Source: a virus. From it: a stretch of DNA of 26,024 nt. The notes below the pieces were generated by a model. It worked only from the letters and a program-made list of their open reading frames with translations. It made no database searches and was not told the origin of the DNA. Location: the IMG/VR virus record IMGVR_UViG_3300034523_000109, positions 1 through 26,024 of that record; one strand, given 5' to 3'. This document shows positions 155-25,706 of the stretch, piece by piece; position 1 is the stretch's first letter; each line of letters begins with the position of its first letter. The translations under genes were made by a program, and so were the position numbers.

Positions 155-174
155 ATTTGTCAGAAAGGACAAAT
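155..174. promoter_or_regulatory. Inverted repeat upstream of terS
   Basis: ATTTGTC (155-161) and GACAAAT (168-174) are perfect inverted arms around six bases. They border the 8-bp repeat array that continues to position 218, and share the TTTGTC core with it. A dimeric DNA-binding protein is the natural reader of such a site. Its identity is unknown. Confidence 0.5.
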
Positions 175-218
175 GCCCTTTTGTGCTTTTGTTCCTTTGC
201 TCCTTTGGTCCTTTCTCC
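171..218 (+). repeat. 8-bp tandem repeat array (iteron-like) before terS
   Basis: Read in 8-bp steps, the plus strand from 171 gives AAATGCCC, TTTTGTGC, TTTTGTTC, CTTTGCTC, CTTTGGTC, CTTTCTCC, with a common pattern YTTTGNTC. The array stops three bases before the terS start codon. The same octamer, in the same orientation to the downstream gene, forms the array before parA at the other end of the window. It could be an operator, a centromere-like site or a terminase-binding (cosB-like) site. The sequence alone does not decide. Confidence 0.6.
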
Positions 219-220
219 CC

Positions 221-793
221 ATGGGCAAGATCATCAGCAAGAAGGATCTCGCCGACCTGATCGGCAAGTCGCCGCGCTGGGTTTCGACGTTGATCGAGGA
301 GGGCCTGCCGACAGTCGGCGGGGGTGGCCGTGGCGTTGCCGTCGAGATCGACAGCGCCGCCGCGATCGACTGGCTGATCGCCCGCGAAGTGCGGCGCGAG
401 ATCGGCGTCGAGGGTGACGACGACGAGGGAGCCGGCTCGGCCTCGAGCGAGGATCGCCTGCTCAAGCGCGCCCGCCGGGAAAAGCTGCAGCTCGAAATTG
501 ACCAGGTGCGCGGCCGGCTGGTGCCGATCGACGCCGTAATGACCCTTTGCACCAGTATCGCGGCCGTGTACGCGACGCAGCTCGATTCACTGCCGAGCCG
601 GTGCGCCTCTGACGTGGCGGTGCTCGATGACCCTGCAGCAATCCGAGCTCGACTATTTGAGGAAACACGGCGTATCCGCGCAGCTACTGCCGACCGCCTC
701 GTCGATCGCGCACGCGGTCTCTCTGCAGAAGCTGACGGCCTCGATTCACTCCGTCGCGGCGATGGTGAAGGCACCGCCGCCGAGGACGTCTGA
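221..793 (+). CDS. Terminase small subunit, Nu1-like
   Basis: This 190-residue protein is close to lambda gpNu1 in length (181). In the family, the small terminase binds the phage DNA packaging site as an oligomer and hands it to the large subunit. The first 60 residues look like a winged helix-turn-helix (ISKKDLADLIGKS then a recognition-like stretch), followed by an acidic linker and a charged helix (LLKRARREKLQLEIDQVRG) typical of this group. I chose ATG 221 because the family homology starts with MGKII and upstream codons lie in the repeat array. Only weak GGTCC/CCCC bases precede it, so the ribosome site is poor. The last 167 bases overlap terL in another frame and show poor codon use in this frame. 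Confidence 0.8.
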   Translation: MGKIISKKDLADLIGKSPRWVSTLIEEGLPTVGGGGRGVAVEIDSAAAIDWLIAREVRREIGVEGDDDEGAGSASSEDRLLKRARREKLQLEIDQVRGRLVPIDAVMTLCTSIAAVYATQLDSLPSRCASDVAVLDDPAAIRARLFEETRRIRAATADRLVDRARGLSAEADGLDSLRRGDGEGTAAEDV

Positions 794-2792
794 CGAGTGG
801 GCGCGTGATAAGCGCGTGATGCCGCCGAGCGCCCCGATACCGGGGCCGTTCAACCCTGACGCTAACCCCTACATGCGCCCGGTCGCCTGGGCTTTCGCGC
901 AGCCCTGTTTTTCCCGCGTGACCTTCGTCATGGGCACGCAAATGGGCAAGTCCGTGACGATGGAAAACATCATCGGCCACCGGCTCGACGAAGACCCGAC
1001 CCCCTGCCTGTATGTGGCGCCGACCAAGCCTCTGCTCGAGAGCACGGTCGAGCCCAAATTCATGGCCATGTTTCGCGAGTGCGAATCGCTCTGGAAGAAG
1101 TTCGACCAGGCCGTCAGCACGAAAATGACGAAGTGGCTCGGCGGTACAAAGTTTCGTTTCGCCTGGGCTGGATCTCCGACCGAGCTCGCGGCCGATTCGG
1201 CCGGCCTGGTGATGGTCGACGAGGTCGACCGGATCGTAAACACGGGCGAGGGCGACACGACCGAGATTATCGAGGCGCGGGGCGATGCCTACGCCGACTC
1301 GAAAATCGGTTACACCGCCACGCCAACGGGCGGCAAGGTCTCGCGCCGGAAAGATCAGCGCTCGGGCCTCTGGCATTGGCAGGTCGGGCCGGCGAAGGCG
1401 ATCGCCTCGAAGGTCTGGCAGCTGTGGCAAAGCGGCACCCGTCACGAGTGGGCGGTGCCGTGTCCGCATTGCGGCGAGTATTTCATCCCCTCGAGCGACC
1501 TCCTGTGGTGGCCGGGGAAGGGTGACCCCGAGAAGGAATGCACGCCCGACGAGGCCTACAAGCACGCCCGGCTGACCTGCTCGGCCAATGGCTGCATGAT
1601 CGAGGACAAGTGGCGCCCCTGGATGAACAAGCGGGGCGTCGCCGTGGCGCCAGGCGAGTCGATCAGTCGCGCCGGCGAGATCCTCGGCACCGCTGACACT
1701 GCAGGATTTACGCACTACTCGATATGGGTCTCGGGCCTCTGCTCGTTTGCGGTCAAGAAATCCTATGGATTCCTTGCCAAGAAGCTGCTCGCGGCGCTTA
1801 TCTCGGGCAATCCGGCGACCCTGCAGGCGGTCTATAACACGGGTTTCGGCGAGTGCTATGCCGAGGCGGGCGACGCCCCGACCTGGGAGGCGGTGCAGGG
1901 TCAGCGCTTCGGCTACATGGCCGGTGACCTGCTGCTCGAGCCGCTGCGGATCTTCTGCACGATCGACGTGCAGAAAAATCGCCTCGTGTACGTGGTGCGC
2001 GCCTGGTATGCCGGCCTGGGCTCGATGCTCCTCGAGCATGGCGAGCTATGGGGCGAGACCGATCAGGACGCCGTGTGGGATGACCTGGGCGAGCTGATCG
2101 ACACCGACTACGCCGGTCACCCGATCTCGCTAACCGGGATCGACATTGGCTACCGCGACGACCAGGTTTACCGCTTCATAAACGAGCACAAGGGGCGCGC
2201 AATCGCTCTGCGCGGGCGCGAGAGGCTCGACAAGCCCTTCCGCAAGGAGACCGTAGAGGTCGACAAGCAGGGCAAAACGCGCAAGCGGGGCGACGCTCGC
2301 TGGGCCTTCGATTCCTCTCTCGCTAAGCGCTGGGTGCATAGCCGCTTCGGCCGACCGGATACCCGGCCTGCCTGGTGGCTGCTGCATCAGCAAGTCACCG
2401 ACGACTACTGCAAGCAGCTCGTCGGCGAGGAGTGGCGAGAGGGCGAGGGCAAGTTTCACCAGGTCGGCGAAAACCATTACCTCGACTGTGAGGCGATGCA
2501 GTACATCCTCGCCCTGCGCGACAAGCTGCACCGCCGAAAGGTCGGCGTGCTGACCAAGGCCGAGCTGCGGGAGGCCATCAAGGCCGGCCCGCAGGCCGAC
2601 CGCCTCGAGGAGGTGCCCGAAGTGGCCGACCAGGTCGAAAAGCCCGAGCAGCAGGAGCCCGCCGCCGAGGTGGTCGAGCCCCTGACGCCTGACCCTACGC
2701 CCAAGGCGAAGCCGGCCGCAGTGCGCCGCGCTGATGCCCCGGCGGCTAAGGCTCGCTCGCGATTCAACATCATCAAAAAGCCCCGGCGCTGA
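627..2792 (+). CDS. Terminase large subunit, GpA-type
   Basis: 721-residue packaging motor of the lambda GpA family, with an N-terminal ATPase and a C-terminal nuclease. Visible features are the PPPRTSDEWA entry motif (about residue 50), a Walker A-like stretch in the GTQMGKSVTMEN region (about 103-114), a Walker B-like LVMVDEVD (about 195-202) and the TATPTGG coupling segment. Two CPHCGEYF / CSANGC cysteine pairs follow, as in GpA proteins, then the acidic nuclease region (GIDIGYRDDQVY). The C-terminus (from about 660) is Pro/Ala/Lys-rich and low in complexity. Start 627 overlaps terS by 167 bases. It is preferred over ATG 762 because codons in 627-762 have the high GC at third positions usual here. 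The alternative start at 762 remains possible. Confidence 0.92.
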   Translation: MTLQQSELDYLRKHGVSAQLLPTASSIAHAVSLQKLTASIHSVAAMVKAPPPRTSDEWARDKRVMPPSAPIPGPFNPDANPYMRPVAWAFAQPCFSRVTFVMGTQMGKSVTMENIIGHRLDEDPTPCLYVAPTKPLLESTVEPKFMAMFRECESLWKKFDQAVSTKMTKWLGGTKFRFAWAGSPTELAADSAGLVMVDEVDRIVNTGEGDTTEIIEARGDAYADSKIGYTATPTGGKVSRRKDQRSGLWHWQVGPAKAIASKVWQLWQSGTRHEWAVPCPHCGEYFIPSSDLLWWPGKGDPEKECTPDEAYKHARLTCSANGCMIEDKWRPWMNKRGVAVAPGESISRAGEILGTADTAGFTHYSIWVSGLCSFAVKKSYGFLAKKLLAALISGNPATLQAVYNTGFGECYAEAGDAPTWEAVQGQRFGYMAGDLLLEPLRIFCTIDVQKNRLVYVVRAWYAGLGSMLLEHGELWGETDQDAVWDDLGELIDTDYAGHPISLTGIDIGYRDDQVYRFINEHKGRAIALRGRERLDKPFRKETVEVDKQGKTRKRGDARWAFDSSLAKRWVHSRFGRPDTRPAWWLLHQQVTDDYCKQLVGEEWREGEGKFHQVGENHYLDCEAMQYILALRDKLHRRKVGVLTKAELREAIKAGPQADRLEEVPEVADQVEKPEQQEPAAEVVEPLTPDPTPKAKPAAVRRADAPAAKARSRFNIIKKPRR

Positions 2793-2816
2793 TCGCGCCG
2801 GCGGCTGGGAACAGCC

Positions 2817-3335
2817 ATGGAACCGACGCAACTACACGCCGGCGACTCGATCGCCTGGTCGCGTGACGTGCCCGCCTGCCCGGCCTCTGACGGCTGGTCG
2901 CTGCGCTACGTGCTGAGCGGTCCCGCGCGGCACGAGCTCGAGGCGATCGGGGGCGTGCCGTACCGGGTCGAGGTATCGGCCTCGACCTCTGCGGCCTGGC
3001 CGGCCGGCGTTTATCGCTGGGTCGCCCTGGCGGTGCGAGGGGAGGGGGAGCGCCAGACGGTAGCCACGGGGCTGCTCGAGGTATCTCCGAACCTCGAGAC
3101 CGCCGACCCGGTCGACGCCCGCAGCCATGCGGCGCGAATGCTGGCCCTGATCGAGGCGGCGCTCGAGAAGCGTATCCCGAAAGATCAGCAGAGCTACGAA
3201 ATCGACGGCATGCGGCTGGATCGCATACCGATCGAGCGCCTCGAGGCGCTGCGGACGAAGTACCGCCGCGAGATTCAGCGCGAGAAAGATCGCCGCCACC
3301 CCTACGGGCGCACCGTCCAATATTCCCCGAGGTAA
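2817..3335 (+). CDS. Head-tail connector, gpW-like C-terminus
   Basis: 172 residues between the large terminase and portal genes, where lambda carries gpW. The last 60 residues (QSYEIDGMRLDRIPIERLEALRT and a basic tail) have the pattern of gpW-type head-completion proteins, which close the portal after packaging. The first about 100 residues are an extra beta-rich domain (SIAWSRDVPACPASDGWSLRYVL) that I do not recognise with certainty. A modest GGGA site precedes ATG 2817. The product ends six bases before the portal start, so the two are probably co-translated. The role is inferred from position and the C-terminal motif. Confidence 0.6.
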   Translation: MEPTQLHAGDSIAWSRDVPACPASDGWSLRYVLSGPARHELEAIGGVPYRVEVSASTSAAWPAGVYRWVALAVRGEGERQTVATGLLEVSPNLETADPVDARSHAARMLALIEAALEKRIPKDQQSYEIDGMRLDRIPIERLEALRTKYRREIQREKDRRHPYGRTVQYSPR

Positions 3336-3341
3336 CCGCCT

Positions 3342-4853
3342 ATGAATCCGCTAAAACGCGCCTGGCAATGGGCGCGCGGGGGTGGCGCGCGTGCGCCTGC
3401 TGCCGAGCGAGTCGAGCCAACGGTCAGCCGCCGCAGCTTCAAGATGGCCGGCGGCGGGCGATTGGGTGCCGGATGGGCGCAGCGCACCAGTGGCGCCGAC
3501 GCGAATCAGGAGATCTACGCCGATCACGAGACGCTGCGGCAGCGTGCGCGCGAGCAGTCGATCAACAGCCCCTATCTCAAGCGCTTTTATCGCCTGCTGC
3601 GGCAGAATGTGATCGGGCCTTATGGCATCAACCTGCAGTCTAAGGCTGTGCTGCCTGACGGCACGCCAGACCGCGCCGCCCGTCGCATGATCGAGAGGGA
3701 GTTTCGCCGCTTTTGCAAGCGGGGGAGCTTCGACGTTACCGGGCAATATTCGTTCGTGACGTTCCTCTGGCTCTGGATCGAGACCCTTGCCCGCGACGGC
3801 GAGGTGCTCGTGCGGCTGGTGAGGAACTGGAAGCGCAACCGCTGGGGCTTCGCGCTGCAGATCCTCGAGGCCGATCGCCTCGACATTCATCTAAACACCC
3901 TGCTCGACAACGGCAACCGGGTAAGGATGGGCGTCGAGCTCGACGAGTGGGGCGCCCCGGTCGCGTACTGGATGCTCAACGACCACCCCGGCGACGTGCT
4001 GCGCTCGGCTGCCGAGCGTTACACCCGCATTCCGGCCGACGAGCTGATCCATACCTTCGACCCGTGGCGGCCGCACCAGGCGCGCGGCTTCACCTGGACC
4101 CATGCCGCCGCGCTGGATATTCACCACCTCGGCGAGTTCCGCACCTCGGCGCTGATCAAGGCCGAGCTCGGCGCGAAAATCACGGGCTTCTATGAGCAGG
4201 ACGCCGAGTTTCTCGACCCGCCCGACGAGGGCGACGACGCCCCGGTGCACGAGGAGGTCGAGGCCGGCACGGCCAAGGTGCTGCCCTACGGTCTGAGCTA
4301 CAAGCCGCACCAGAACGCCTCGCCGGGTAGCGATTACGCCCCCTTCGTCAAGGACTCCCTGCGCGGTAGTGCTGCAGGTCTGGGGCCGAGCTACAACCGC
4401 ATATCGCACGACCTCGAGGGCGTGAGCTTCTCCTCGCTGCGCGACGGGACGCTCGACGAGCGCGACTTCTACAAGTGCTGTCAGGAGCTGGTGATTAGCT
4501 CTCTGCTCGAGCGCATGGGCGAGGAGTGGTTCGACAGTGCCGTGCTGCATGGCGCGCTCAAGATCGCCGCGCGCGATCTCGACCGCTGCAGTGAGCAGGT
4601 CTGGCAGCCGCGCGGCTGGGATTGGGTCGACCCCTTGAAGGACTCGAAGGCGGCGACCGAGAGCATCGGCAACCGCACGAAGACCCGTAGCCAGCTAATC
4701 CGCCAGAACGGCGACGACCCCGACGAGATCTTCGCAGAGCTCGAGGCCGAGGAGCAGATGCTCCGCGACAAGGGCTTGCTCGCCGATCCGCCACCGAAAA
4801 AACAGGAGAAGCCAGTCGATGACGACGAGCTCGAAAACGACCGCGCCGAGTAG
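3342..4853 (+). CDS. Portal protein, lambda GpB type
   Basis: 503 residues, usual for lambda-type portals (gpB is 533). The portal forms the dodecameric ring at the capsid vertex through which DNA enters and to which the tail joins. Family-like segments are the NSPYLKRFYRLLRQNVIGPYGINLQ block (about 70-95), LARDGEVLVRLVRN (about 150), HTFDPWRPHQARG (about 235) and DLEGVSFSSLRDGTLDERDFY (about 350). The C-terminus is charged and probably flexible. ATG 3342 follows a good GAGGT site. The gene overlaps the capsid gene by 35 bases, suggesting translational coupling. Confidence 0.93.
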   Translation: MNPLKRAWQWARGGGARAPAAERVEPTVSRRSFKMAGGGRLGAGWAQRTSGADANQEIYADHETLRQRAREQSINSPYLKRFYRLLRQNVIGPYGINLQSKAVLPDGTPDRAARRMIEREFRRFCKRGSFDVTGQYSFVTFLWLWIETLARDGEVLVRLVRNWKRNRWGFALQILEADRLDIHLNTLLDNGNRVRMGVELDEWGAPVAYWMLNDHPGDVLRSAAERYTRIPADELIHTFDPWRPHQARGFTWTHAAALDIHHLGEFRTSALIKAELGAKITGFYEQDAEFLDPPDEGDDAPVHEEVEAGTAKVLPYGLSYKPHQNASPGSDYAPFVKDSLRGSAAGLGPSYNRISHDLEGVSFSSLRDGTLDERDFYKCCQELVISSLLERMGEEWFDSAVLHGALKIAARDLDRCSEQVWQPRGWDWVDPLKDSKAATESIGNRTKTRSQLIRQNGDDPDEIFAELEAEEQMLRDKGLLADPPPKKQEKPVDDDELENDRAE

Positions 4854-6723: not shown

Positions 6724-6747
6724 CCGAACCTGAAAGCGGGCAGGTAT

Positions 6748-6770
6748 GGGGGCTCCGGCCCCCTTTTTTT
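6748..6770 (+). terminator. Rho-independent terminator after the capsid gene
   Basis: GGGGGC and GCCCCC pair around TCCG and are followed by seven T. It lies between the capsid gene and the next gene, and probably sets a step-down in late transcription rather than a full stop, as the following neck genes have no evident promoter. Confidence 0.85.
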
Positions 6771-6796
6771 CACCCCATGAAAGCAGGTAACACTCT

Positions 6797-8640: not shown

Positions 8641-8642
8641 GC

Positions 8643-10584: not shown

Positions 10585-11207
10585 CCGATCGCCCTCGTCA
10601 GACGGTGCTGCCGCCCAATAGCTCGCTGCTCGAGGTGGGTCTCGACCTGGCCTTCGATCAGATGCTCGAGCGGCTCGAGCCTCCCTTCCCTGAGCTGATG
10701 GACCCGCTTAAGACGCCGGCCGAGTTCCTGCCGTATCTGGCGGCGGATCGGGGCGTCGGCGAGTGGGAGTCGACGGCGGGGGAGGCTGAGAAGCGCGCGA
10801 CCGTGGCGAGCGCCTGGTCGGTCAAGCGCCTGGCCGGTACGCGCAAGGCCCTTGCGCTCGCGGTCGAGTCTCTCGGCCTGCTGCCCGAGGTGATCGCCTG
10901 GCACAAGGAGCAGCCACCCGGCAGCCCCTACAGCATCCGGGTAGTCGCTCGCGCCCTCGGCGCCTTCGACGCCGAGTCGAATCGACGCCTCGGGGTGCGC
11001 CTGGATGACGCCAAGGCCGAGCGCGACGTGCTCTCGCTCGACATTGTCAGCGAGGTACAGGGTCGCCTGTATTACGCCGCCGCAGTGAGCACCGGCAGCA
11101 CGACCACCGTTTACCCCTATTCCGAACGCGAGAGCGAAGTGCAGGGCCGCCTCTACTACGGCGCCGGCCTTGTCGAGATCTCGACTACTACGGTGTATCC
11201 GCAATGA
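10581..11207 (+). CDS. I: Tail protein, P2 gpI-like, with duplicated C-terminal segment
   Basis: 208 residues (P2 gpI 176). In P2-type tails gpI links the baseplate wedge to the side fibre. The N-terminal two-thirds (VLPPNSSLLEVGLDLAF, then the LAADRGVGEW region) match the family. Residues 157-179 and 185-207 are two copies of a unit starting SEVQGRLYY and ending STTTVYP. This extends the protein past the usual length next to the fibre-binding end. ATGA junctions couple it to J and to the fibre gene. Confidence 0.88.
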   Translation: MTDRPRQTVLPPNSSLLEVGLDLAFDQMLERLEPPFPELMDPLKTPAEFLPYLAADRGVGEWESTAGEAEKRATVASAWSVKRLAGTRKALALAVESLGLLPEVIAWHKEQPPGSPYSIRVVARALGAFDAESNRRLGVRLDDAKAERDVLSLDIVSEVQGRLYYAAAVSTGSTTTVYPYSERESEVQGRLYYGAGLVEISTTTVYPQ

Positions 11208-12628
11208 CGCCACAAGATCCGATCTACTCTCTGCCGACCAACGTCGGCGCGGCCAAGCTGGCTTATGCCCTGGCCAATCAGCTGACCGTCAATATCTCGC
11301 ACATGGCGCTCGGCGACGGCAACGGCGCCCCGGTCAACCCTACGGCGGCCGCTACGGCGCTTGTGCGCGAGGTTCACCGGGCGCAGCTCAATCAGCTGTA
11401 TCAGCACCAGGACAACCCTAATTGGCTCGTCGCCGAGCTCGTGCTGCCGGCCGAGGTCGGCGGCTGGACGATTCGCGAGATCGGCCTCTATGACGTCGAC
11501 GGCGCGCTGATCTTCGTCGGCAACCATGCCGAGCAATACAAGCCAATTCAGAGCCAGGGCAGCGACGAAACAAAGACGATCCGCATGGTGATCCTCGTCT
11601 CGAGTGTCGCGGCGGTGACCCTGAAAACCGACCCGTCGACGGTCATGGCGACGATCAAGTACGTCAACGACCGGACGCCAGCGGCGAGCGCCGCCGCGCC
11701 TGGCCTGGTCGCGCTCGCGACGGCTGCAGAGGTGCAGGCTGGCACGGATGCCGAGCGGGCGGTAACGCCTGCCGGCCTGGCTTCGCGCACGGCGACGGAT
11801 GCCCGCACGGGTCTGGTCGAGCTGGCAACTGACGCCGAGGTGCAGGCCGGCACTGATACGGCTCGAGCGGTGACTCCTGCCGGTCTGGCTTCGCGCACGG
11901 CAACGGAAACCCGCACCGGCGTTGTCGAGCTGGCAACCATCGCCGAGACGCAGACCGGGACGGACAGTCAGCGAGCGGTGACGCCTCTAGGCCTGGCTGC
12001 GCGCACGGCGACGGATACCCGCACGGGCCTGGTCGAGCTGGCGACTGACGCCGAGGTGCAGGCGGGCGCTGACACGACCCGCGCGATCACCCCGGCGGGC
12101 CTGGCTTCGAGGACCGCGACCGAGGCTCGCACGGGTCTGGTCGAGCTGGCTACGGCAGCCGAAGCGACGGCGGGCACTGACACTGCTCGGGCCGTTACGC
12201 CTGCAGGCCTGCGCGCCTTTATGTCTGGTCAGGTTTGCTTTCATGCCTACCCGTCTGCCGGCACGGCGCTGGCGGCGAATGTGAATAAGAAAATCACATA
12301 CGCGACTGAGCTTTTCGATATCGGCGGTTGCTTTGCGAACAGTCGATTTACCGCGCCGGCCGATGGAATTTATGAGTTCGTCGCCGCTGTGCATTTCACG
12401 AGTAACGGCAGCTCTGCCGACAATGGCGGGGTCGAGCTGTGGGTTAATGGTGCAGTGTCGCGCCGCATTGCCGAGTCTTTCGGTCCTCGAAATCAGCTTT
12501 CGGGAGAGAGCGGCCCCATGCTGCTTACGGCGGGGGATTACGTCGAGGTTTACGCCTGGACTGATATTGCCTGCACGACAAACCCATTCGGCGCCCTGAG
12601 TTATTTCAATGGTCGGAGGGTCGGCTAA
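11204..12628 (+). CDS. H: Tail fibre protein with 36-residue repeats and a C1q-like tip
   Basis: 474 residues. Residues 1-155 match the phage tail-collar fibre N-terminal domain (DUF3751 type; GWTIREIGLYDVDGALIFVG), which attaches to gpI. Residues about 163-340 hold five tandem units of 36 residues with the frame GLVELAT..AEVQAGTD..RAVTPAGL, a fibre shaft motif known in many phages. Residues about 341-474 have the pattern of a C1q/TNF-like jelly roll (FTAPADGIYEFVAAVHF) and likely form the receptor-binding tip. This tip is visibly lower in GC and in codon bias than the shaft, suggesting separate acquisition. Confidence 0.88.
   Translation: MTPQDPIYSLPTNVGAAKLAYALANQLTVNISHMALGDGNGAPVNPTAAATALVREVHRAQLNQLYQHQDNPNWLVAELVLPAEVGGWTIREIGLYDVDGALIFVGNHAEQYKPIQSQGSDETKTIRMVILVSSVAAVTLKTDPSTVMATIKYVNDRTPAASAAAPGLVALATAAEVQAGTDAERAVTPAGLASRTATDARTGLVELATDAEVQAGTDTARAVTPAGLASRTATETRTGVVELATIAETQTGTDSQRAVTPLGLAARTATDTRTGLVELATDAEVQAGADTTRAITPAGLASRTATEARTGLVELATAAEATAGTDTARAVTPAGLRAFMSGQVCFHAYPSAGTALAANVNKKITYATELFDIGGCFANSRFTAPADGIYEFVAAVHFTSNGSSADNGGVELWVNGAVSRRIAESFGPRNQLSGESGPMLLTAGDYVEVYAWTDIACTTNPFGALSYFNGRRVG
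11800..12220 (+). repeat. 108-bp tandem coding repeats in the fibre gene
   Basis: Near-identical units spaced 108 bases apart begin near 11800, 11908, 12016 and 12124, with a more diverged one starting near 11692. Each codes one 36-residue shaft unit. Such DNA repeats can recombine and alter fibre length. Confidence 0.75.
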
Positions 12629-15744: not shown

Positions 15745-15762
15745 TCTGCAAGGAATCCCGCA

Positions 15763-16460: not shown

Positions 16461-16463
16461 GGC

Positions 16464-19615: not shown

Positions 19616-19625
19616 GGGGGTAGGC

Positions 19626-20645
19626 ATGACAATCGGATTTACCCCGGCCGTCGAGATTTACGGTGCCAATGCGGCGCTGATCAACTCGCGGCTTGTGGAT
19701 TGGGAGCACGTCGACGCGGCCGGCGTCGAGTCTGATCAGCTCAAGCTGACGGTGAATATCGAGGGGCTCGAGGGCCTGCCGAGCGTCGACGGAAAGGTCG
19801 GGCTGCGCGTGGGCTACAAGGAGACCGGGCTCGTCGACAAGGGCGAGTTTGTGGTCACCCGCACGACCCCGCAGCTATTCCCGGCCCTGCTGCTGATCGT
19901 GGCCACGGCGGCACCGTTCAAGGTGAAGGACGAGACCGGCTTCAAGGCTCGTCGATCGGCGACCTACGCTATGACGACGCTCGGGCAGGTATTCCGCCAG
20001 CTCGCCGCGCGGCACGGCTTCTCGCCGCGCGTGGCGCCGGATCTCGACGCTATCCCGATCGTGCACGTCGACCAGTCGAACGAGACCGATATGGGCTTCC
20101 TGACGCGCCTCGCGAAGCGTTACGACGCGGTAACGAAGCCGGTCAACGATCTGTATGTGCTCGCGCGGCGCGGCCAGGTCAAGTCGCTGAGCGGCAAGCC
20201 GCTGCCCCCGGTGACCCTATCGGTCACGAAGGACAACAAGCCAGGCGAGCGGGCATTCATCGCGGCCAGTATCGACCAGGACAGCCGCGTCCGCTTCAAG
20301 GGCTGCAAAACGACCTGGTGGGACGGGAGCGCCGGCAAGGAGTGCGTCGTCGAGGTGGGCGAGGAGCCCTTTAAGTCGGTGCGCCAGCGCTACCAGAACG
20401 AGGCCGAGGCCAAGGCCGCCGCCGAAGGCCAGCACCGCAAGACGAAGCGCGAGGCGGCGAAGCTGCGGATCGACTGCCCCGGTAACCCGGCGCTCGGCGC
20501 CGAGGGCTTGCTCGTGCTCGACGATACCTGGCCGAGCTTCATGCGCGGCACCTGGTCGATCGACAAGGTGACCGCCAGCGGCAGCCGGCAGCAGAGTTAC
20601 CGCTGCACTATCGAGGCGACCTATCCAGAGGGTCGCGAAGCCTGA
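19626..20645 (+). CDS. D: Baseplate hub / late control protein, P2 gpD-like
   Basis: 339 residues (P2 gpD 387). gpD forms the baseplate hub linking the tube to the gpV spike. Family features include FTPAVEIYGANAALINSRL at the start, the LRVGYKETGLVDKGEF strand pair, TTLGQVFRQLAARHG, and HVDQSNETDMGFLTRLAKRYDA, the most conserved gpD segment. The C-terminal DDTWPSFMRGTWSIDKVTA completes the match. ATG 19626 follows GGGGGTAGG. It is the last gene of the structural block and is followed by a strong terminator. Confidence 0.93.
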   Translation: MTIGFTPAVEIYGANAALINSRLVDWEHVDAAGVESDQLKLTVNIEGLEGLPSVDGKVGLRVGYKETGLVDKGEFVVTRTTPQLFPALLLIVATAAPFKVKDETGFKARRSATYAMTTLGQVFRQLAARHGFSPRVAPDLDAIPIVHVDQSNETDMGFLTRLAKRYDAVTKPVNDLYVLARRGQVKSLSGKPLPPVTLSVTKDNKPGERAFIAASIDQDSRVRFKGCKTTWWDGSAGKECVVEVGEEPFKSVRQRYQNEAEAKAAAEGQHRKTKREAAKLRIDCPGNPALGAEGLLVLDDTWPSFMRGTWSIDKVTASGSRQQSYRCTIEATYPEGREA

Positions 20646-20646
20646 C

Positions 20647-20658
20647 GAGAGATCTCTC
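20647..20658. repeat. Perfect 12-bp palindrome after gene D
   Basis: GAGAGATCTCTC is its own reverse complement. It touches the base of the terminator stem that follows and overlaps its first C. It may be only an extension of that structure or a protein site. No function is known. Confidence 0.6.
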
Positions 20659-20686
20659 CCGCTGCCTCGTGCGGCGGGCTTTTTTT
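20658..20686 (+). terminator. Strong terminator of the structural block
   Basis: CCCGCTGC pairs with GCGGCGGG (one G-T pair) around CTCGT and is followed by C and seven T. It ends late transcription four bases before the first promoter-leader module begins. Confidence 0.9.
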
Positions 20687-20690
20687 GTGT

Positions 20691-20718
20691 TTGACAATAC
20701 GCGGAAACCGCGTATTAT
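20691..20718 (+). promoter_or_regulatory. Promoter 1 with operator inside the spacer
   Basis: A consensus -35 TTGACA (20691-20696), a 16-base spacer and -10 TATTAT (20713-20718). The spacer is filled by an inverted repeat with 9-base arms AATACGCGG and CCGCGTATT around AAA (20696-20716). A repressor bound there would block RNA polymerase directly. This is the clearest sigma70 promoter seen in the window. Confidence 0.85.
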
Positions 20719-20768
20719 TGACCACACAAAACGACGCGCCTCGGTCTGTCAGGGGCTGGTGATAAACG
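20691..20768 (+). repeat. 78-bp promoter-leader repeat, copy 1
   Basis: This stretch runs from the -35 box to the base before ATG. It is 76/78 identical to 21204-21281. The two differences are the last base of the -35 box (A here, G in copy 2) and one base just after the -10. The transcribed leader of about 45 bases is identical, can form a weak GCCTC/GGGGC stem (20738-20756), and has no well-placed Shine-Dalgarno sequence. Confidence 0.9.
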
Positions 20769-21161
20769 ATGACTCTCAATACCTACCGCGTGCATGTGAT
20801 CGAAAAGCAATGGGGCGGCTTCGAGGCTGACTTCTGGGCCTACGCAGACGGCGCCAGCGAGGCCGAGGCGATCGCCGCTGTCGAGGCCCGCTGCAGCGCC
20901 TGGCGCGCTGATCGCGTCGAGCTGTTCGCCGAGGGCGTGGTCAAGGCCGACGTCGTGCCGGCGGCTGCAGAGCTGCTCGAGGAGCTCGAGCGCTTCGGCG
21001 AGGTGCGGCAAGGTGGCTGCGTGCTCAAGCGCCGCGCTGATCAGTTCGTCATGTACCGCGAGCGCAACGTCTTCGACCGTCACCAGCTCGCGGCCTGCGC
21101 GACCGACGCGGTCAGGCTCGAGGCCCACTGGCGCGGGTTTGTTGAATCGAGGCGCGCGTAG
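20769..21161 (+). CDS. Unknown accessory protein of the first leader cassette
   Basis: 130 residues, family not recognised. It appears soluble and mixed alpha/beta: TYRVHVIEKQWGGFEADFWAY looks like beta strands, ASEAEAIAAVEARCSAW a helix, then AAAELLEELERFGE another helix. It starts right after the first promoter-leader and ends 11 bases before a strong terminator, so it forms a single-gene transcription unit under the palindromic operator. The codon use (high GC at third positions) matches the phage, so it is probably a real gene. No function is assigned. Confidence 0.65.
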   Translation: MTLNTYRVHVIEKQWGGFEADFWAYADGASEAEAIAAVEARCSAWRADRVELFAEGVVKADVVPAAAELLEELERFGEVRQGGCVLKRRADQFVMYRERNVFDRHQLAACATDAVRLEAHWRGFVESRRA

Positions 21162-21172
21162 GTCGGTGCCAG

Positions 21173-21201
21173 GCCCCGGCGAGATCCGGGGCTATTTTTT
21201 T
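21173..21201 (+). terminator. Terminator of the first leader cassette
   Basis: GCCCCGG and CCGGGGC pair around CGAGAT, followed by TA and seven T. Its T-run ends two bases before the -35 box of the second promoter copy, making a compact terminator-promoter unit like the one at 20658-20718. Confidence 0.92.
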
Positions 21202-21203
21202 GC

Positions 21204-21231
21204 TTGACGATACGCGGAAACCGCGTATTAT
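21204..21231 (+). promoter_or_regulatory. Promoter 2 with operator inside the spacer
   Basis: -35 TTGACG (21204-21209), a 16-base spacer and -10 TATTAT (21226-21231), with the inverted repeat ATACGCGG/CCGCGTAT around AAA at 21210-21228. The -35 is one base weaker than in copy 1 and the outermost operator pair is lost, so basal strength and repression may differ slightly. Confidence 0.83.
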
Positions 21232-21281
21232 TGGCCACACAAAACGACGCGCCTCGGTCTGTCAGGGGCTGGTGATAAACG
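21204..21281 (+). repeat. 78-bp promoter-leader repeat, copy 2
   Basis: Second copy of the 78-bp module at 20691-20768, again ending at the base before a start codon. Flanking and coding sequences are unrelated between copies, so only the control region was duplicated or conserved. Confidence 0.9.
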
Positions 21282-21521
21282 ATGAATGCAAGCCAACTGA
21301 TCCAATCCATGCGCGCCCGCGTTGCCTCGCTGAGCCTGCCGCAGATCCTCGAGGCCTTCGAGCAGACCAATGCGCTGCAGGGCGACGAGGTGCCGACCGT
21401 GCGCGGGGTGCTGATGGACGAGCTCGAGCGCCGCGACGAGGCCGCCTTCTCGGCATGGATGGAAACCGCAGACGTCGCGCTGATGGATACCCCGACCCAC
21501 TTCTACCGCGCCGCCCTCTGA
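21282..21521 (+). CDS. Unknown small helical protein of the second leader cassette
   Basis: 79 residues, mostly helical (ASQLIQSMRARVASLSLPQILEAFEQT). The part VRGVLMDELERRDEAAFSAWME resembles short proteins often found on plasmids and integrative elements, whose function is not established. It is the first gene after promoter 2 and is followed after 25 bases by an XRE-like regulator. No catalytic motif is seen. Confidence 0.62.
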   Translation: MNASQLIQSMRARVASLSLPQILEAFEQTNALQGDEVPTVRGVLMDELERRDEAAFSAWMETADVALMDTPTHFYRAAL

Positions 21522-21546
21522 GGGCGGCACCTCTCGAGGGCCTACG

Positions 21547-21783
21547 ATGGCAAACCACCCGAACCGAGGCGCCGGCGGCGCCTCTGCTAACCCCAAGCCC
21601 GAGCAGATCCTCGAGGCACGCAATGCGGCCGGCCTGACGCAGACGCAGGCGGCCGACCTGGTGCACTCGACCTGCAGGCGCTGGCAGGAGTGGGAGGCGG
21701 GCGACTACCGCATGCACCCCGGCCTATTCGAGCTGTTCCAGCTCAAGACGCGGCAGATCAAGCTGCCGAAGGCGGCGCAATGA
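21547..21783 (+). CDS. Small XRE/Cro-like DNA-binding protein
   Basis: 78 residues. Residues about 18-65 (PEQILEARNAAGLTQTQAADLVH then RRWQEWEAGDYRMHPGLFELFQL) form a helix-turn-helix of the XRE/Cro kind: the LTQTQAADL scaffold, a recognition helix around STCRRWQEWE, and the trailing ELFQL helix. The N-terminus is basic and disordered. It is the second gene of the promoter 2 cassette, so it is a candidate for the protein that reads the palindromic operator in both promoters, though this is inference. It overlaps the next gene by ATGA. Confidence 0.75.
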   Translation: MANHPNRGAGGASANPKPEQILEARNAAGLTQTQAADLVHSTCRRWQEWEAGDYRMHPGLFELFQLKTRQIKLPKAAQ

Positions 21784-21884
21784 CGCTCGCTCTCCCGGTC
21801 TTCGACCTGCTCCTCGTGGCGCCGATCGCGCTCGGGTGCTTCGTGCTGGGCGCCCTCGTCGGCTACGCATCGCGGCGCGCCTGA
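21780..21884 (+). CDS. 34-residue membrane microprotein
   Basis: The frame opens at the ATGA junction with the XRE-like gene and codes 34 residues: a short lead, a single hydrophobic segment (LLLVAPIALGCFVLGALVGY, residues 10-29) and a positive end SRRA. The tight coupling and the bidirectional terminator 12 bases later support a real gene. A small inner-membrane protein is likely. Function unknown. Confidence 0.5.
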   Translation: MTLALPVFDLLLVAPIALGCFVLGALVGYASRRA

Positions 21885-21895
21885 TCAGCTGCAAA

Positions 21896-21935
21896 AAGAA
21901 AGCCCCCACTGCCTCGCGGCGGTGGGGGCTTTCTT
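21896..21935. terminator. Bidirectional terminator between converging genes
   Basis: Perfect 14-base arms, AAGAAAGCCCCCAC and GTGGGGGCTTTCTT, around a 12-base loop, with A-rich left and T-rich right flanks. It lies between plus-strand genes ending at 21884 and a minus-strand gene ending at 21947, so it can stop transcription from both sides. Confidence 0.9.
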
Positions 21936-21946
21936 CGTTTCTGGCT

Positions 21947-22315
21947 CTAGCCCTGGCGCAGGATCTCGTCGGGCATGCTGGGCGGTCGCGCTCGATCCTG
22001 GCTGACCTCTGGTAGGCCCTGCAGCTGCTCGGCCGGCACCTTGGCCAGGCGCTCGAGGAGCTCGAGGGCGTTGCCGTTCGCCGAGATCCACACGCCCTCG
22101 CGCTGCAGCCAGACGCTTGCCGTCGCGCCGTTTAGGTAGCGGCAGACGCCCCAGCGCTCGCCGAGGTGGCGCCGGATCTTGCAATCGACGGCCAGGCCTG
22201 CGCGGTCGTTGAGGATCTCGAGGCCGCGTGCGTCTTTGTTGACCAGGTCGACGGCCAGGGCGCCGAGGATGCCGGCGAGGGCGATGCCGCCGATCGCCTT
22301 GGTGGTTTTCTTCAT
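21947..22315 (-). CDS. Unknown membrane-anchored or exported small protein
   Basis: 122 residues, not recognised. The N-terminus KKTTKAIGGIALAGILGALAVDL is a positively charged lead and a hydrophobic stretch, either a signal peptide or an anchor. There is no lipobox. The rest contains two cysteines (DCKIRRHLGERWGVCRYLNG), which could form a disulphide in the periplasm, and a small beta segment (SVWLQREGVWI). GGAG lies upstream of ATG 22315. A minus-strand terminator stands between it and the operon upstream, so it probably has its own weak promoter or uses read-through. Confidence 0.6.
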   Translation of the reverse strand: MKKTTKAIGGIALAGILGALAVDLVNKDARGLEILNDRAGLAVDCKIRRHLGERWGVCRYLNGATASVWLQREGVWISANGNALELLERLAKVPAEQLQGLPEVSQDRARPPSMPDEILRQG

Positions 22316-22357
22316 GCTGCGCGCTTCTCCTTTTGCGGTGGCGGCGCGCAGGGTAAC

Positions 22358-22383
22358 AAAAAGCCCGCCGAGGGGGCGGGCTT
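22358..22383 (-). terminator. Minus-strand terminator of the par-methyltransferase operon
   Basis: Arms AAGCCCGCC and GGCGGGCTT around five bases. On the minus strand the stem is followed by a run of five T. It stands 30 bases after the stop of the repeat-protein gene, ending the eight-gene minus operon. Confidence 0.88.
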
Positions 22384-22412
22384 GTGGGGCTGGCTACATG
22401 GTCGCGCCCCTC

Positions 22413-22778
22413 CTAGGGCTCGTCGCGCCTGCTGTCGTTGTCGAGGTCGCGGTCGCTGCCGCCGTAGTGGTAGTCGCGCCGGCGATCGTTGTCGAGATCT
22501 CGGTCGCTGCCGCCCTGGTCGGCGTCGCGCCTGCTGTCGTTGTCGAGGTCTCTATCGCTGCCGCCGAAGGCCGCGTCGCGCCGGCCGTCGTTGTCGAGGT
22601 CTCTATCGCTGCCGCCGAAAGCCGCGTCGCGCCGCCCGTCGTTGTCGAGGTCGCGGTCTGCGCCCCCGCAGGAGGCATCGCGGCGCCCGTCGTTGTCGAG
22701 GTCGCAGTCGCTGGCCGGGGCAGCGCCGGCGAGCAGCGCCAGGGTGGCCGCGATCGCCGCTATGATTGCTCGTTTCAT
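22413..22778 (-). CDS. Secreted DxDNDxxxD-repeat protein
   Basis: 121 residues. Residues 1-23 (KRAIIAAIAATLALLAGAAPAS) are a clear signal peptide, with cleavage expected after a small residue near 20-23. The whole mature part is six 17-residue repeats with the frame DRDLDNDGRRDAAFGGS, the last cut short. The D-x-D-N-D-x-x-x-D spacing is that of calcium-binding loops in thrombospondin type 3, dockerin and similar repeats. Extracytoplasmic Ca2+ binding is therefore likely but not shown. The first repeat has two cysteines (DCDLDND, ASCGG). The start overlaps the previous gene (ATGA) and has AAAGGAG upstream. The family is not recognised. Confidence 0.7.
   Translation of the reverse strand: MKRAIIAAIAATLALLAGAAPASDCDLDNDGRRDASCGGADRDLDNDGRRDAAFGGSDRDLDNDGRRDAAFGGSDRDLDNDSRRDADQGGSDRDLDNDRRRDYHYGGSDRDLDNDSRRDEP
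22416..22709 (-). repeat. 51-bp coding tandem repeats
   Basis: Six copies of a 51-base unit coding the 17-residue calcium-loop repeat, the last incomplete. Neighbouring central copies are almost identical in DNA, pointing to recent expansion or gene conversion. Confidence 0.85.
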
Positions 22779-23098
22779 GGTGCGGGGCTCCTTTGTTGGT
22801 TTGCTGTGCTGGGCAGCTCCTCGAGGAGGGCTGCCGCGTCGAGTAGGCGCCATCGCACGTCGTCGATCGCCCGGTCGGCCATATCGCGCAGCGCCGCCGG
22901 CAGGCTCTCGAGCGACCAGCGGCTGCGATCGCCCCAGCGCCTGAGCAGGTCGGAAACGTCGCCAGGCGTGCGCTCGAGGGCGTACACGGTAAAGCCGCAG
23001 GATCTGCAGCGGATCGCGTGCCAGCCCTCCTCGGCGCTGTGGCTGCCGGCGCCGCCGCATAGCGGGCGCGGGCAGGGTGGAAGCGCGCCGGCGATCAT
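22775..23098 (-). CDS. Lar-like restriction alleviation zinc-finger protein
   Basis: 107 residues. The first 50 carry a two-pair cysteine finger: CPRPLCGG (about 9-16) and CRSCG (about 31-35), with a His/Trp-rich link (EEGWHAIR) and the following VYALERTPGDVSDLLRRW. This matches the layout of the Lar/restriction-alleviation family (CPFCGG ... CxxCG ... WNRR-like end). Lar proteins enhance host-type methylation or relieve type I restriction. The C-terminal half is a helical extension. It overlaps the methyltransferase by ATGA and the next gene by ATGA, so an anti-restriction pair is likely. Confidence 0.65.
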   Translation of the reverse strand: MIAGALPPCPRPLCGGAGSHSAEEGWHAIRCRSCGFTVYALERTPGDVSDLLRRWGDRSRWSLESLPAALRDMADRAIDDVRWRLLDAAALLEELPSTANQQRSPAP

Positions 23099-24021
23099 GC
23101 TGCCACCATGAAGGCGCGCAGGATCTCCTCGCCGGCCTTCGGCGGCACGGCGTTGCCGGCAAGGTGCACGGTCAGCGCGTGCTGCGGCGGGCGCTTGGTC
23201 CCGGCTGGGAATGACTGGCCGCGCAGCACTTCGTCGGCGGTCAGCATTCGCATTAGGTCGCCGTCGACGAGCGCCCATCGGTCGCGGGTGGTCAGGGTGC
23301 CGATCGGGCGCTCTAGGCTGCGCCCGGTAGTGCCTGAGCCCTTTCCGTAGTACGGCATGACGAAGCGGTCGCCGAAGGTCTGGCGGCCGTTGGCGACGCG
23401 CTGTAGGGTCGCGAGCGATCGCCCCGGCTTGTGGATCTGCGACCAGTTGCCGGCGGCGAAGTCGAGAAAGGTCGCGGCCGGTACATGCTCGAGGCGCGGC
23501 AGCTGCAGGCGTAGCGGCTTGCGGCTGCGGGTCAGCACTAGGAAAAGCCGCTCGCGATTCTGCGGCACGCCGAGGTCGGCGCAGTCGACCAGGTGCGGCG
23601 CGATCGAATAACCGAGCGCCTCGATTGCCATTGCCCAAGCAGGGTATAGAGCCCAGCTCAGGAACTCGCGCACGTTCTCGACGACCCCGCCCTCGGGGCG
23701 ATGGTATTCAAGGGCCGAGACGACGGCCCACGCGGTCGACCTCGAGGCGTCGTGCTGCGGGTTTCCCGATAGCTTTCCGCGCGCCTTGCTGTGCCCTTGG
23801 CAGCAGGGCGAGGCGAGCAGTACGTCATGCGCCGGCACGAGCGACCAGTCGGCCTGGTGCAGATCCTGGCACTTGTGCTCGGTCTCCGGGTGGTTTGCGC
23901 TGTGCCATTCGACGGCGCTCTGCCAGTGATTTGCTGCCCATAGGACGCGCAGGCCGGCCTGCGTCGCTCCGGTAGACCAGCCACCGAGGCCGGCGAAAAG
24001 GTCAATGGCTGTCGCGGTCAT
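23095..24021 (-). CDS. DNA (cytosine-5-)-methyltransferase
   Basis: 308 residues from ATG 24021, chosen because motif I begins seven residues in and an AGGGAG site precedes it. Motifs in order: I DLFAGLGG (7-14), IV SPCCQGHS (71-78, likely catalytic Cys74), VI ENV (115-117), VIII QNRERLFLV (about 153-161), then the variable target-recognition region, and X GNAVPP near the end. Motif IV has Cys where GPPCQG has the second Pro. No restriction enzyme gene is seen beside it, so it is probably an orphan enzyme that protects phage DNA by modification. It overlaps the upstream gene by 20 bases. Confidence 0.93.
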   Translation of the reverse strand: MTATAIDLFAGLGGWSTGATQAGLRVLWAANHWQSAVEWHSANHPETEHKCQDLHQADWSLVPAHDVLLASPCCQGHSKARGKLSGNPQHDASRSTAWAVVSALEYHRPEGGVVENVREFLSWALYPAWAMAIEALGYSIAPHLVDCADLGVPQNRERLFLVLTRSRKPLRLQLPRLEHVPAATFLDFAAGNWSQIHKPGRSLATLQRVANGRQTFGDRFVMPYYGKGSGTTGRSLERPIGTLTTRDRWALVDGDLMRMLTADEVLRGQSFPAGTKRPPQHALTVHLAGNAVPPKAGEEILRAFMVAA

Positions 24022-24166
24022 GCTCGGCGCTCTCCCTGGCTTTGCTGGCGGCCTTGTGGGCCTTGTAGAGGCGGCGCACAAGGGCGCCGATGGCGACGGC
24101 AACGGCCAGCGCCGAAAAGATCAGCCCGAAGAATTGCTCGAGCGGGCTCGACGAGGATCTGCTCAT
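24002..24166 (-). CDS. 54-residue single-span membrane protein
   Basis: A short frame between the methyltransferase and the gene upstream, with an ATGA junction at its start (24166) and a 20-base overlap at its end. The product starts with a Ser-rich segment, has one membrane span (FGLIFSALAVAVAIGALV, about 13-30) and a strongly basic tail (RRLYKAHKAASKAR). The positive-inside rule puts the C-terminus in the cytoplasm. It is too short for many gene finders, but the overlapping junctions support it. Function unknown. Confidence 0.6.
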   Translation of the reverse strand: MSRSSSSPLEQFFGLIFSALAVAVAIGALVRRLYKAHKAASKARESAEHDRDSH

Positions 24167-24447
24167 AGACCGGCCTCCCGCTGCAGTGCGACGAGCAGCT
24201 CCTGCTCGGGGCTGCGGGCGCCGAGATCCTCGCGCATGTAATTGACGATCGCCGCCGCCAGCTTGACCGCGCCCTCGGCGGCGGCCTTGTTCACGCTGTA
24301 GCCGCTGTGCGCGCGGTCGTCGATTACCAGCTCGATCAGGTCGGCGGCTTGGTATCCCTGGTGCTGCAGGATTGCCTCGGCGATCGCCTTCACGCGATGC
24401 CGGTCGTCTGGCGCGATGGCGCTCGAGACGTTGTCGAGAATGATCAT
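24163..24447 (-). CDS. Unknown small protein of the minus operon
   Basis: 94 residues from ATG 24447, which follows GGGAGG and overlaps the upstream stop by ATGA. The longer frame to 24612 lacks a ribosome site and contains the upstream gene antiparallel in codon quality, so I reject it. The product is helical: APDDRHRVKAIAEAILQHQG, then AADLIELVIDDRAHSGYSV and KAAAEGAVKLAAAIVNYMRE. No known motif is seen. It could be a small regulator or toxin-antitoxin-like component, but nothing supports this. Confidence 0.6.
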   Translation of the reverse strand: MIILDNVSSAIAPDDRHRVKAIAEAILQHQGYQAADLIELVIDDRAHSGYSVNKAAAEGAVKLAAAIVNYMREDLGARSPEQELLVALQREAGL

Positions 24448-24596
24448 GCGGCAGCCTCCCCGATGGCGCGCAGCAGGCCGTGATAGGTGATCAGGTTTTG
24501 CTGCTGCGCATAGGCGCGAACGAGGTCGCGATACTTCGGATCGCGCGCCAGGCTCACGGGCAGGCGCGCAGCGGTGATATAGTCCTCTCTGGACAT
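24444..24596 (-). CDS. 50-residue unknown protein, first of the distal minus genes
   Basis: A 50-residue frame starting at ATG 24596 after an AGAGGG site and overlapping the next gene by ATGA. The product begins SREDYITAARLPVSLARDPKY and is helical and charged, with AYAQQQNLITYHGLL near the end. It was too short for a 60-residue cutoff. Codon use and both coupling signals favour a real gene. It lies 65 bases after the parB-type gene and may share its transcript. Confidence 0.55.
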   Translation of the reverse strand: MSREDYITAARLPVSLARDPKYRDLVRAYAQQQNLITYHGLLRAIGEAAA

Positions 24597-24602
24597 AGCG
24601 GA

Positions 24603-24656
24603 ACCCTCTCAAAGGTCGTTGTGTCTTGCCCGGTTGCGGTGGCCGCCGCGCCGGGC
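24603..24656. other. Structured gap between the parB-type gene and the next gene
   Basis: The gap holds GCCCGG and CCGGGC arms with an inner GCGG/CCGC hairpin (about 24630-24656). On the minus strand there is no T-run, so it is not a convincing terminator. It could act as an attenuator or mRNA-stabilising structure between the partition and the distal genes. Confidence 0.4.
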
Positions 24657-24661
24657 TTTCC

Positions 24662-24967
24662 TTACTTCCCGAGCCGATCCAGTCGGCGGCGAAGCTCCTC
24701 GAGGTCGTCGACCTTGAACTTTCCCTCCCCCGACTTGTACTTCTCGAAAAGATCGTCGATCGCCTCGAGCAGCAGGTACTTAACCGGCGTGCTCTCGACG
24801 GTCAGGTTTTTAATGTCCTGCAGGCCCTGGTGATAGTGCGGCGGGGCGAGCAGCGGGATTTTCTTCTCGGGCTGGTCGCTGGAGACGGCCGCGCGGGCCT
24901 TCTCGACGTGGGCCGCCGCGCCGGTATCGGCTCCGCGCTTGCTGGGGCGCTGTGCGGTAAGGCTCAT
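24662..24967 (-). CDS. Putative centromere-binding partner of ParA
   Basis: 101 residues, directly after parA and overlapping it by ATGA, the normal place for the ParB/ParG-type partner. The first 45 residues are basic, Pro/Ala-rich and disordered, as in many small partition adaptors where this tail stimulates the ATPase. The second half (DIKNLTVESTPVKYLLLEAI, then LFEKYKSGEGKFKV and a Leu/Arg helix) has the short-strand plus two-helix plan of small ribbon-helix-helix-like proteins. The sequence match to a named family is not firm. It is the best candidate to bind the 8-bp arrays. Confidence 0.55.
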   Translation of the reverse strand: MSLTAQRPSKRGADTGAAAHVEKARAAVSSDQPEKKIPLLAPPHYHQGLQDIKNLTVESTPVKYLLLEAIDDLFEKYKSGEGKFKVDDLEELRRRLDRLGK

Positions 24968-25611
24968 TTCAGCACCTCGAGCACTTCACTGGTCAGGGCT
25001 TCGACTTCGGCGCGAGCCGGATCATCGGCGCGCAGATCCATGACGCTAAGGCCTTTTACGACCCCGCCGACGTATGCCTGCCGCTGATGGGTGCGCGCCT
25101 TGAGGATTGGCAGCCCGAGCTCTGCGATTGCGCCCTCGATCTCGCGCGCCAGCACCGTGCCCGGCACCGCTCTGGCGACCATCATCACGCCGGCCGGCTT
25201 CCCGTCTGCGATCTCCTGCCGGTCCTTCACCAGCTGCACCAGGTCGCCGCATGCCCAAATGTCGTAGGGGCTGGGCTGCACGGGGATGATTACCAGGTCG
25301 GCGACCTTGATCGCGGCGGCCGACAGCTCGCTAACCTGCGGCACGCCGTCGATCACAACGAAGTCGAAGTCGCCCGCGACGCGCGGTAGGTCGCGTGCCA
25401 GTTGCTTGCCCATGGCGACGACGGGGACGTGCCAGGCGACGTCGTTGCCCTCCTGCGCGGCCGCCCAATCGGTCGCCGATCCTTGGTCGTGGTTAAGGTC
25501 AACGACCATAACCGAGAAGCCCCGCGAGGCGATGCAAGCGGCAAGGTTTGTCGAGGTGGTGGTCTTCGTGGTGCCGCCTTTCTGGTTCAGCACCGAGATT
25601 ATTTTCGGCAT
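24964..25611 (-). CDS. parA: ParA-family partition ATPase
   Basis: 215 residues, the length of small ParF-type ATPases without an N-terminal DNA-binding domain. Deviant Walker A KGGTTKTT (11-18), the A' region MVVDLNHDQGSATDW (34-48), and Walker B FDFVVIDGVP (81-90) are in place; a Thr replaces the usual Gly at residue 15. It segregates plasmid copies together with a small partner and a centromere. Start 25611 has AGGAG nine bases upstream; the longer frame to 25704 crosses the promoter array. Its presence implies that the prophage is maintained as a plasmid. Confidence 0.92.
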   Translation of the reverse strand: MPKIISVLNQKGGTTKTTTSTNLAACIASRGFSVMVVDLNHDQGSATDWAAAQEGNDVAWHVPVVAMGKQLARDLPRVAGDFDFVVIDGVPQVSELSAAAIKVADLVIIPVQPSPYDIWACGDLVQLVKDRQEIADGKPAGVMMVARAVPGTVLAREIEGAIAELGLPILKARTHQRQAYVGGVVKGLSVMDLRADDPARAEVEALTSEVLEVLK

Positions 25612-25651
25612 TGCGTGTGCTCCTGGTGGTGGTTGCTTATCAGCAGGGGTA

Positions 25652-25680
25652 AGAATAGGAACAAAAGAACAAAAGATCAA
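25652..25680 (-). promoter_or_regulatory. Candidate parA promoter within the octamer array
   Basis: On the minus strand, TTGATC (25675-25680) and TATTCT (25652-25657) are separated by 17 bases. Both boxes lie on octamer units, so a protein bound to the array would control parA. Small Par systems often autoregulate this way. Confidence 0.55.
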
Positions 25681-25706
25681 TAGGACATAGGAACAAAAGA
25701 ACATAA
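25659..25706 (-). repeat. 8-bp tandem repeat array before parA (candidate centromere/operator)
   Basis: Plus-strand octamers in sequence: GAACAAAA, GAACAAAA, GATCAATA, GGACATAG, GAACAAAA, GAACATAA. Read toward parA they are TTTTGTTC units. In small ParA systems the centromere lies upstream of parA and consists of such short repeats. The same unit, in the same orientation to the downstream gene, makes up the array at 171-218 before terS. Confidence 0.7.

Follow-up and report, generated by a model that had tools for sequence, protein, structure and literature searches.

One partition protein probably reads octamer arrays at the parA, terS, repA and lysis genes of telomere phages

The closest precedent for the arrangement reported here is plasmid pSM19035, with its ParA delta and the ribbon-helix-helix ParB omega, for which six sites of 7–10 unspaced 7-bp repeats lie over the copS, delta and omega promoters, and at least four contiguous repeats are needed for full ParA activation (PMC9499535). 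The use of several arrays by one small partner, as centromere and operator, is thus known already from this plasmid, and a centromere scattered over a linear prophage is known from N15, where the SopABC system has the dispersed centromere IR1–4 (PMC7205306). In the TP228 ParF/ParG/parH system the partner acts on centromere and operator; parH is built from degenerate tetramer boxes separated by AT-rich spacers, and the system has no packaging, replication or lysis sites (PMC7308502). On the packaging side, lambda and N15 have a Nu1-family TerS adjoining cos and a cosB element with TerS R sites, repeated short boxes set in both orientations between cos and terS (PMC4669245). A recent VP882-family paper makes no mention of partition, centromere or repeats, and a survey of telomere phages gives no centromere. 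The combination of these known elements with a site inside cos appears undescribed in searchable papers, the original VP882 and phiHAP-1 genome papers not being among them.

The DNA analysed here (the window) makes up a whole IMG/VR record, 26,024 bases in length. On sequence grounds the phage is related to Halomonas phage phiHAP-1 and Vibrio phage VP882, both of which have a linear-plasmid lifestyle and a protelomerase in their annotated genomes. The window spans the cos-to-telomere half of a telomere phage. Alignments with the relatives G010 and G012 stop exactly at position 1, sequence like that of 1–220 is found at the ends of VP882 and phiHAP-1, and the palindrome at 25943–26012 is the site matching the annotated phiHAP-1 repeat, between parA and the protelomerase gene. 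The window being its own whole record, arrays at repA and the lysis genes are visible only in relatives. Its relevant features are:

1–220, plus strand: cos region and terS leader, with position 1 at or near the virion end (cos)
155–174, no strand: inverted repeat ATTTGTC / GACAAAT around AGAAAGGAC, the arms resembling opposed octamers; same layout in relatives
162–170, plus strand: AGAAAGGAC box between the inverted-repeat arms, lineage-invariant, a possible TerS (R-like) site
179–218, plus strand: left octamer array before terS, TTTTGTGC TTTTGTTC CTTTGCTC CTTTGGTC and a degenerate CTTTCTCC
208–216, minus strand: second AGAAAGGAC box (GTCCTTTCT on the plus strand), overlapping the array end just before the terS ATG
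221–793, plus strand: terS, Nu1-type small terminase subunit (PF07471, E 3.8e-9; phrog_57, E 1e-30)
24662–24967, minus strand: ParA partner (ParB/CBP-like), 101 residues, predicted octamer reader, with a strand that tracks the octamer type
24964–25611, minus strand: parA, ParF-like small Walker ATPase of 215 aa, its stop overlapping the partner start
25652–25680, minus strand: promoter-like pair TTGATC-17-TATTCT inside the right array, at a conserved position
25659–25706, minus strand: right octamer array before parA, six contiguous units, operator/centromere candidate
25712–25730, minus strand: terminator-like hairpin upstream of the parA array
25752–25760, minus strand: third AGAAAGGAC box, upstream of the parA array
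25943–26012, no strand: imperfect palindrome, probably the left part of the telomere (telRL), inside which the window ends on the right

With type Ib systems, in which a ParF-like ATPase works with a ribbon-helix-helix partner, the partition locus shares a small ParF-like ParA, a directly downstream partner gene and repeats overlapping the parA promoter, and in its ParF-like ParA and adjacent small-partner gene it resembles TP228. ParA is small, lacks an N-terminal DNA-binding domain, matches NF041546 with 219.5 bits (cut-off 180) and finds ParF as the closest among solved structures (4dzz, E 1.1e-29 over residues 3–213); its true start on the minus strand is 25611, within a long open frame that begins at 25704. 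In nearly all genomes examined, the start of the partner gene and the stop of parA overlap by 4–11 bases. The partner itself has a variable strand-like segment, KKIPLLAP (residues 35–42), followed by two conserved helices. We infer a ribbon-helix-helix fold from weak, repeated matches to the model PF20605 (17 of 20 members, best E 1e-4, below the curated cut-off where shown), on which the assignment depends because structure prediction failed: the AlphaFold model of the partner was poor (mean pLDDT 61), and a fold search with it returned no match. A profile search of solved structures with the partner gave no meaningful match, and no omega. Between the tail genes and parA lies a C5 cytosine DNA methyltransferase gene (PF00145; 23095–24102, minus strand); in phiHAP-1 and VP882 the tail genes are directly followed by a gene for an adenine methyltransferase.

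As in pSM19035, a small ParA and a small partner are found together with unspaced short-repeat arrays at partition and replication-control genes, and one protein is proposed as both centromere binder and repressor. The units here are of 8 bp and YTTTGNNC-like, unlike the 7-bp WATCACW of pSM19035, and the partner has no sequence match to omega in the searches made. The preliminary description had reported six tandem octamers before parA, and these were found exactly there, reading TTATGTTC TTTTGTTC CTATGTCC TATTGATC TTTTGTTC TTTTGTTC on the minus strand toward the gene; the inverted repeat that it saw bordering the left array is also present, with arms at 155–161 and 168–174. Tandem octamers before terS were likewise seen, but they are best placed at 179–218 rather than from 171 onwards, and they end two bases, not three, before the ATG at 221. 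Over four consecutive octamers, both arrays score 27 of 32 against TTTTGTTC, compared with a best score of 18 in ten Markov shuffles of the window; the same scan detected no further array in the window, no other place scoring 22. The proposed motif scan for YTTTGNTC, run on the window, gave 8 occurrences against 2.95 expected, with 6 of the 8 inside the two arrays. Both sites in the window carry at least four contiguous repeats, the number that pSM19035 requires before ParA is fully activated (PMC9499535).

Searches with ParA and TerS yielded about 100 loci, and both upstream regions were readable in 45 genomes. Nine of these loci are contigs in bacterial genome assemblies that carry the labels Pseudomonas (five), Halomonas (two), Stutzerimonas and Spirulina; the Spirulina contig probably stems from an associated bacterium. 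Telomere phages of the VP882/phiHAP-1 kind are widespread, their hosts belonging to Pseudomonas, Stutzerimonas, Halomonas and Vibrio, and VP882 serves as a model of how phages make decisions. Octamer arrays stand at both the parA and the terS site in 45 of 45 genomes; the left octamers, whose possible absence from close relatives had been raised beforehand, are therefore present throughout. Moreover, the octamer letters change together at both sites by lineage, to TTTTGTTC, TTTTGTAC, TTTTGCGT or ATTTGTCC. The TTTTGTTC type is found in the clade of the window and in G016, TTTTGTAC together with TTTTGGCC occurs at both sites in G007, G013 and the Pseudomonas prophages G033 and G034, and the YTTTGTAC type characterises G014, G015, G018, G020 and G021. 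Four relatives (G023–G025 and G048) carry the TTTTGCGT type, G044, G045 and G054 combine TTTTACGT with TTTTGCGT, and the Halomonas prophage G041 has the ATTTGTCC type; octamers of phiHAP-1 and VP882 are of GTAC type. When the pairing of parA and terS arrays was permuted with AGAAAGGAC masked, p was 0.001–0.002 for 7 lineage representatives, and none of 200,000 permutations reached the observed value for 17 non-independent clusters, the compared lineages being few and related.

Repeats within one genome are alike, as would be expected if the arrays had been homogenised by gene conversion, without any common binding protein. This explanation is extremely improbable: the units differ between the sites in number, order and orientation, the flanks are not homogenised, and a protein segment changes along with the octamer letters. 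G012 runs counter to the pairing: its partner and its arrays at parA and repA are of GTAC/GGCC type, and its terS array is of GTTC type. It resembles G010 in the late genes (96%) and G013 on the parA side (98%), and so appears to be either a recombinant or an assembly chimera; should the phage be real, it would show by nature's own experiment whether partner and terS array need to correspond.

The protein segment in question is the strand of the partner. KKIPL (in EKKIP-LLAP) accompanies GTTC octamers, KQLK (EKQLK) accompanies GTAC/GGCC octamers and ER[IV]Y accompanies GCGT/ACGT octamers. In the Halomonas/Vibrio group, partners with an aspartate (YDT, VDI) accompany GTAC, and partners with a glutamate (EV, VEI) are found where GTCC/GTGY units occur (G039, G041 and G058), yet G039 has the glutamate type with GTAC units at parA. 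A partial Mantel test over 20 genomes, controlled for ParA and the rest of TerS, gave correlations of the partner strand of r 0.45 with the parA array and 0.41 with the terS array (0 of 5000 permutations as high), of the partner helices of 0.20 and 0.17, and of the TerS DNA-binding domain of -0.01 and 0.33, respectively. The last of these values is as expected, because the DNA neighbouring the terS array includes TerS sites. The joint change of the octamer letters across relatives implies that one partition protein probably reads the arrays at parA, terS, repA and the lysis genes, and the reader is most likely the 101-residue ParA partner. The earlier proposal of one protein for both arrays, perhaps this partner, is supported by the co-variation of octamer letters and partner strand.

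The left octamers are placed like lambda cosB, between cos and the terS start, and could in principle be a TerS-binding element of that kind, their likeness to the parA array being accidental or compositional. The correlation of the TerS DNA-binding domain with the terS array after controls is in keeping with such a role, for which the AGAAAGGAC boxes are also suited as TerS sites. However, the octamer letters at terS vary in step with those at parA and repA, the TerS DNA-binding domain is much alike across all octamer types and lacks any partial correlation with the array at parA, and the invariant element at cos is the AGAAAGGAC box rather than the octamers. We therefore regard this reading as very unlikely. 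The left region does belong to cos and TerS, which had been considered as its sole function, but it is not only that, since its octamers follow the parA array; a cos-only reading of the left array was rejected because of this co-variation.

Another phage protein, most likely the large RepA or the prophage repressor, might read all the arrays instead of the partner; the changes in the partner strand would then merely travel with that protein, and in the case of RepA the arrays would be iterons or copy-control sites. This possibility is favoured by the array that, in all relatives with an identified repA, extends right up to the start of that gene; of the phage proteins, the co-variation test covered ParA, its partner and TerS. 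It is nevertheless rather improbable, since 8-bp tandem arrays over a parA promoter are typical of a small partition partner, the partner strand outperforms the helices of the same protein in the Mantel test, and scans of complete relatives detected no array at repressor or antirepressor genes.

Returning to the partner as the reader, the two arrays of the window differ in their relation to promoters. A promoter-like pair with a spacer of 16–17 lies about -58 to -77 from the parA ATG in 44 of 45 genomes, whereas none of the 45 has such a pair in the 120 bp before terS, the scoring of pairs having been chosen after the sequences had been seen. A standard promoter scan of the window found none at parA and the hexamers are weak, so the case for a parA promoter leans on its conserved position. 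As the parA array overlaps this conserved pair, it looks like an autoregulatory operator. The statement that the array controls terS found no such support, and the terS array was rejected as a promoter element, there being no promoter-like pair at that place in any genome. To judge from its surroundings, the cos/terS array looks like a centromere or a roadblock within cos, beside the invariant AGAAAGGAC boxes.

These boxes follow a pattern of their own. The window has just three copies of AGAAAGGAC (0.09 expected), all at the terS and parA loci, and the box is nearly absent elsewhere in the genomes of relatives, some of which (e.g. G014, G020 and G021) have it about 200 bp from the repA array. 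Before terS, AGAAAGGA/TCCTTTCT is found in 45 of 45 genomes, with TCCTTTCT at most 38 bp from the ATG in every one; before parA, AGAAAGGA or its complement is found in 35 of 45. The box is invariant across octamer types, and on the parA side it is usually followed by a hairpin. Because of their position at cos and their conservation alongside the TerS DNA-binding domain, the boxes at cos are candidate TerS sites; others lie near parA and the telomere. The Nu1-family TerS adjoining cos and the short boxes in both orientations are as in lambda and N15 cosB (PMC4669245), but in these phages the boxes alternate with an extra octamer array, which co-varies with the partition partner, and further copies of the boxes stand next to parA.

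According to the preliminary description, the same array stands at both ends, which is correct for parA and terS; the system exceeds two ends, because arrays are also found at repA and at the lysis cassette. Genome scans of complete relatives revealed three to five arrays per genome. Relatives that carry repA, which lies outside the window, have the same array at parA and repA, as in pSM19035, and the repA arrays share the octamer type of their lineage, with some mixing in the GTTC clade. Most complete relatives also have a weaker array 200–530 bp before the holin/endolysin genes. Compared with pSM19035, this is a linear telomere phage, and the arrays are also found at cos/terS and the lysis genes. 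In Vibrio phage VP58.5, whose TerS is without a close match, arrays lie close to parA, close to repA and some 240 bp from the end of the record, and there is none directly before terS. An extra array is seen near the late-gene end of phiHAP-1 (23805), VP882 (22685) and VP58.5 (23166); this array of the marine phages is absent from Pseudomonas-type relatives.

We consider it likely that the arrays are dispersed centromere and operator sites of one partner protein, with one site built into cos. The partner would tile the arrays as ribbon-helix-helix dimers, one per 8 bp, and the three to five scattered arrays would act as a set consisting of the parA promoter, the repA leader, the lysis-gene leader and the cos/terS leader. 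In the lysogen, a linear plasmid, they would form a dispersed centromere moved by the ParF-like ATPase ParA. At parA, binding of the partner would cover the promoter and repress parA and the partner gene, and because a bound array would reach the start codon at repA and cos/terS, it could block local expression at both places and, at cos, the access of terminase. We infer partner binding, partition function, repression and cos masking alike from comparison of the genomes. As in N15 (PMC7205306), the sites are scattered over the genome of a linear plasmid prophage with a protelomerase, the centromere role being a predicted one here; unlike N15, with SopB and inverted-repeat sites, these phages have a ParF-like ATPase, a partner of about 100 residues and tandem octamers.

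In a narrower form of this proposal, the arrays would be purely a dispersed centromere, with no effect on terS, cos or the lysis genes. This is possible, though we are inclined to doubt it. In relatives with telomere-like ends, the parA array is close to an end and the terS array roughly one third along the genome (37.1 and 12.2 kb of 37.6 kb in G001), the linear plasmid prophage N15 has four separate centromere sites, and the terS array is without an underlying promoter-like pair, all of which would suit a pure centromere. The placing of the arrays is non-random, however: they end at the terS and repA start codons, sit before lysis genes and interleave with the conserved cos boxes. A broader role is conceivable but unlikely, in which the partner would be a genome-wide lysogeny-maintenance factor coating the repA, lysis-leader and cos/terS arrays, so that replication, lysis and packaging would be kept shut and cos masked from terminase during linear-plasmid life; loss of the partition complexes, for example when rapid replication dilutes the partner, would then help to release the lytic programme. 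The lysogeny switch suggested in the preliminary description is likewise conceivable. The favoured reading, centromere and operator sites of one partner, provides candidates for the centromere sites and for the reader protein, along with a code relating strand to octamer that comes in several natural variants, and under it a single small DNA-binding protein might couple partition, replication, lysis and packaging.

Other repeats were observed in the window. A 97-bp element occurs twice (20676–20772 and 21189–21285, 95% identity), each time ahead of a small gene, and its TTGACA-like and TATTAT boxes flank a perfect palindrome, ATACGCGGAAACCGCGTAT, found only at these two places in the window; the pair looks like a duplicated repressed promoter. 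The frame at 22413–22760 on the minus strand encodes an apparent secreted protein with a possible signal peptide, MKRAIIAAIAATLALLAGAAPAS, and about six calcium-loop-like repeats, DRDLDNDGRRDA, which derive from a 51-bp tandem repeat. Finally, a 108-bp tandem repeat of 4.7 copies (11702–12211) lies within the open frame 11204–12628, a probable tail fibre, and encodes protein repeats of the type GLVELATDAEVQAGTDTARAVTPAGLASRTATD.
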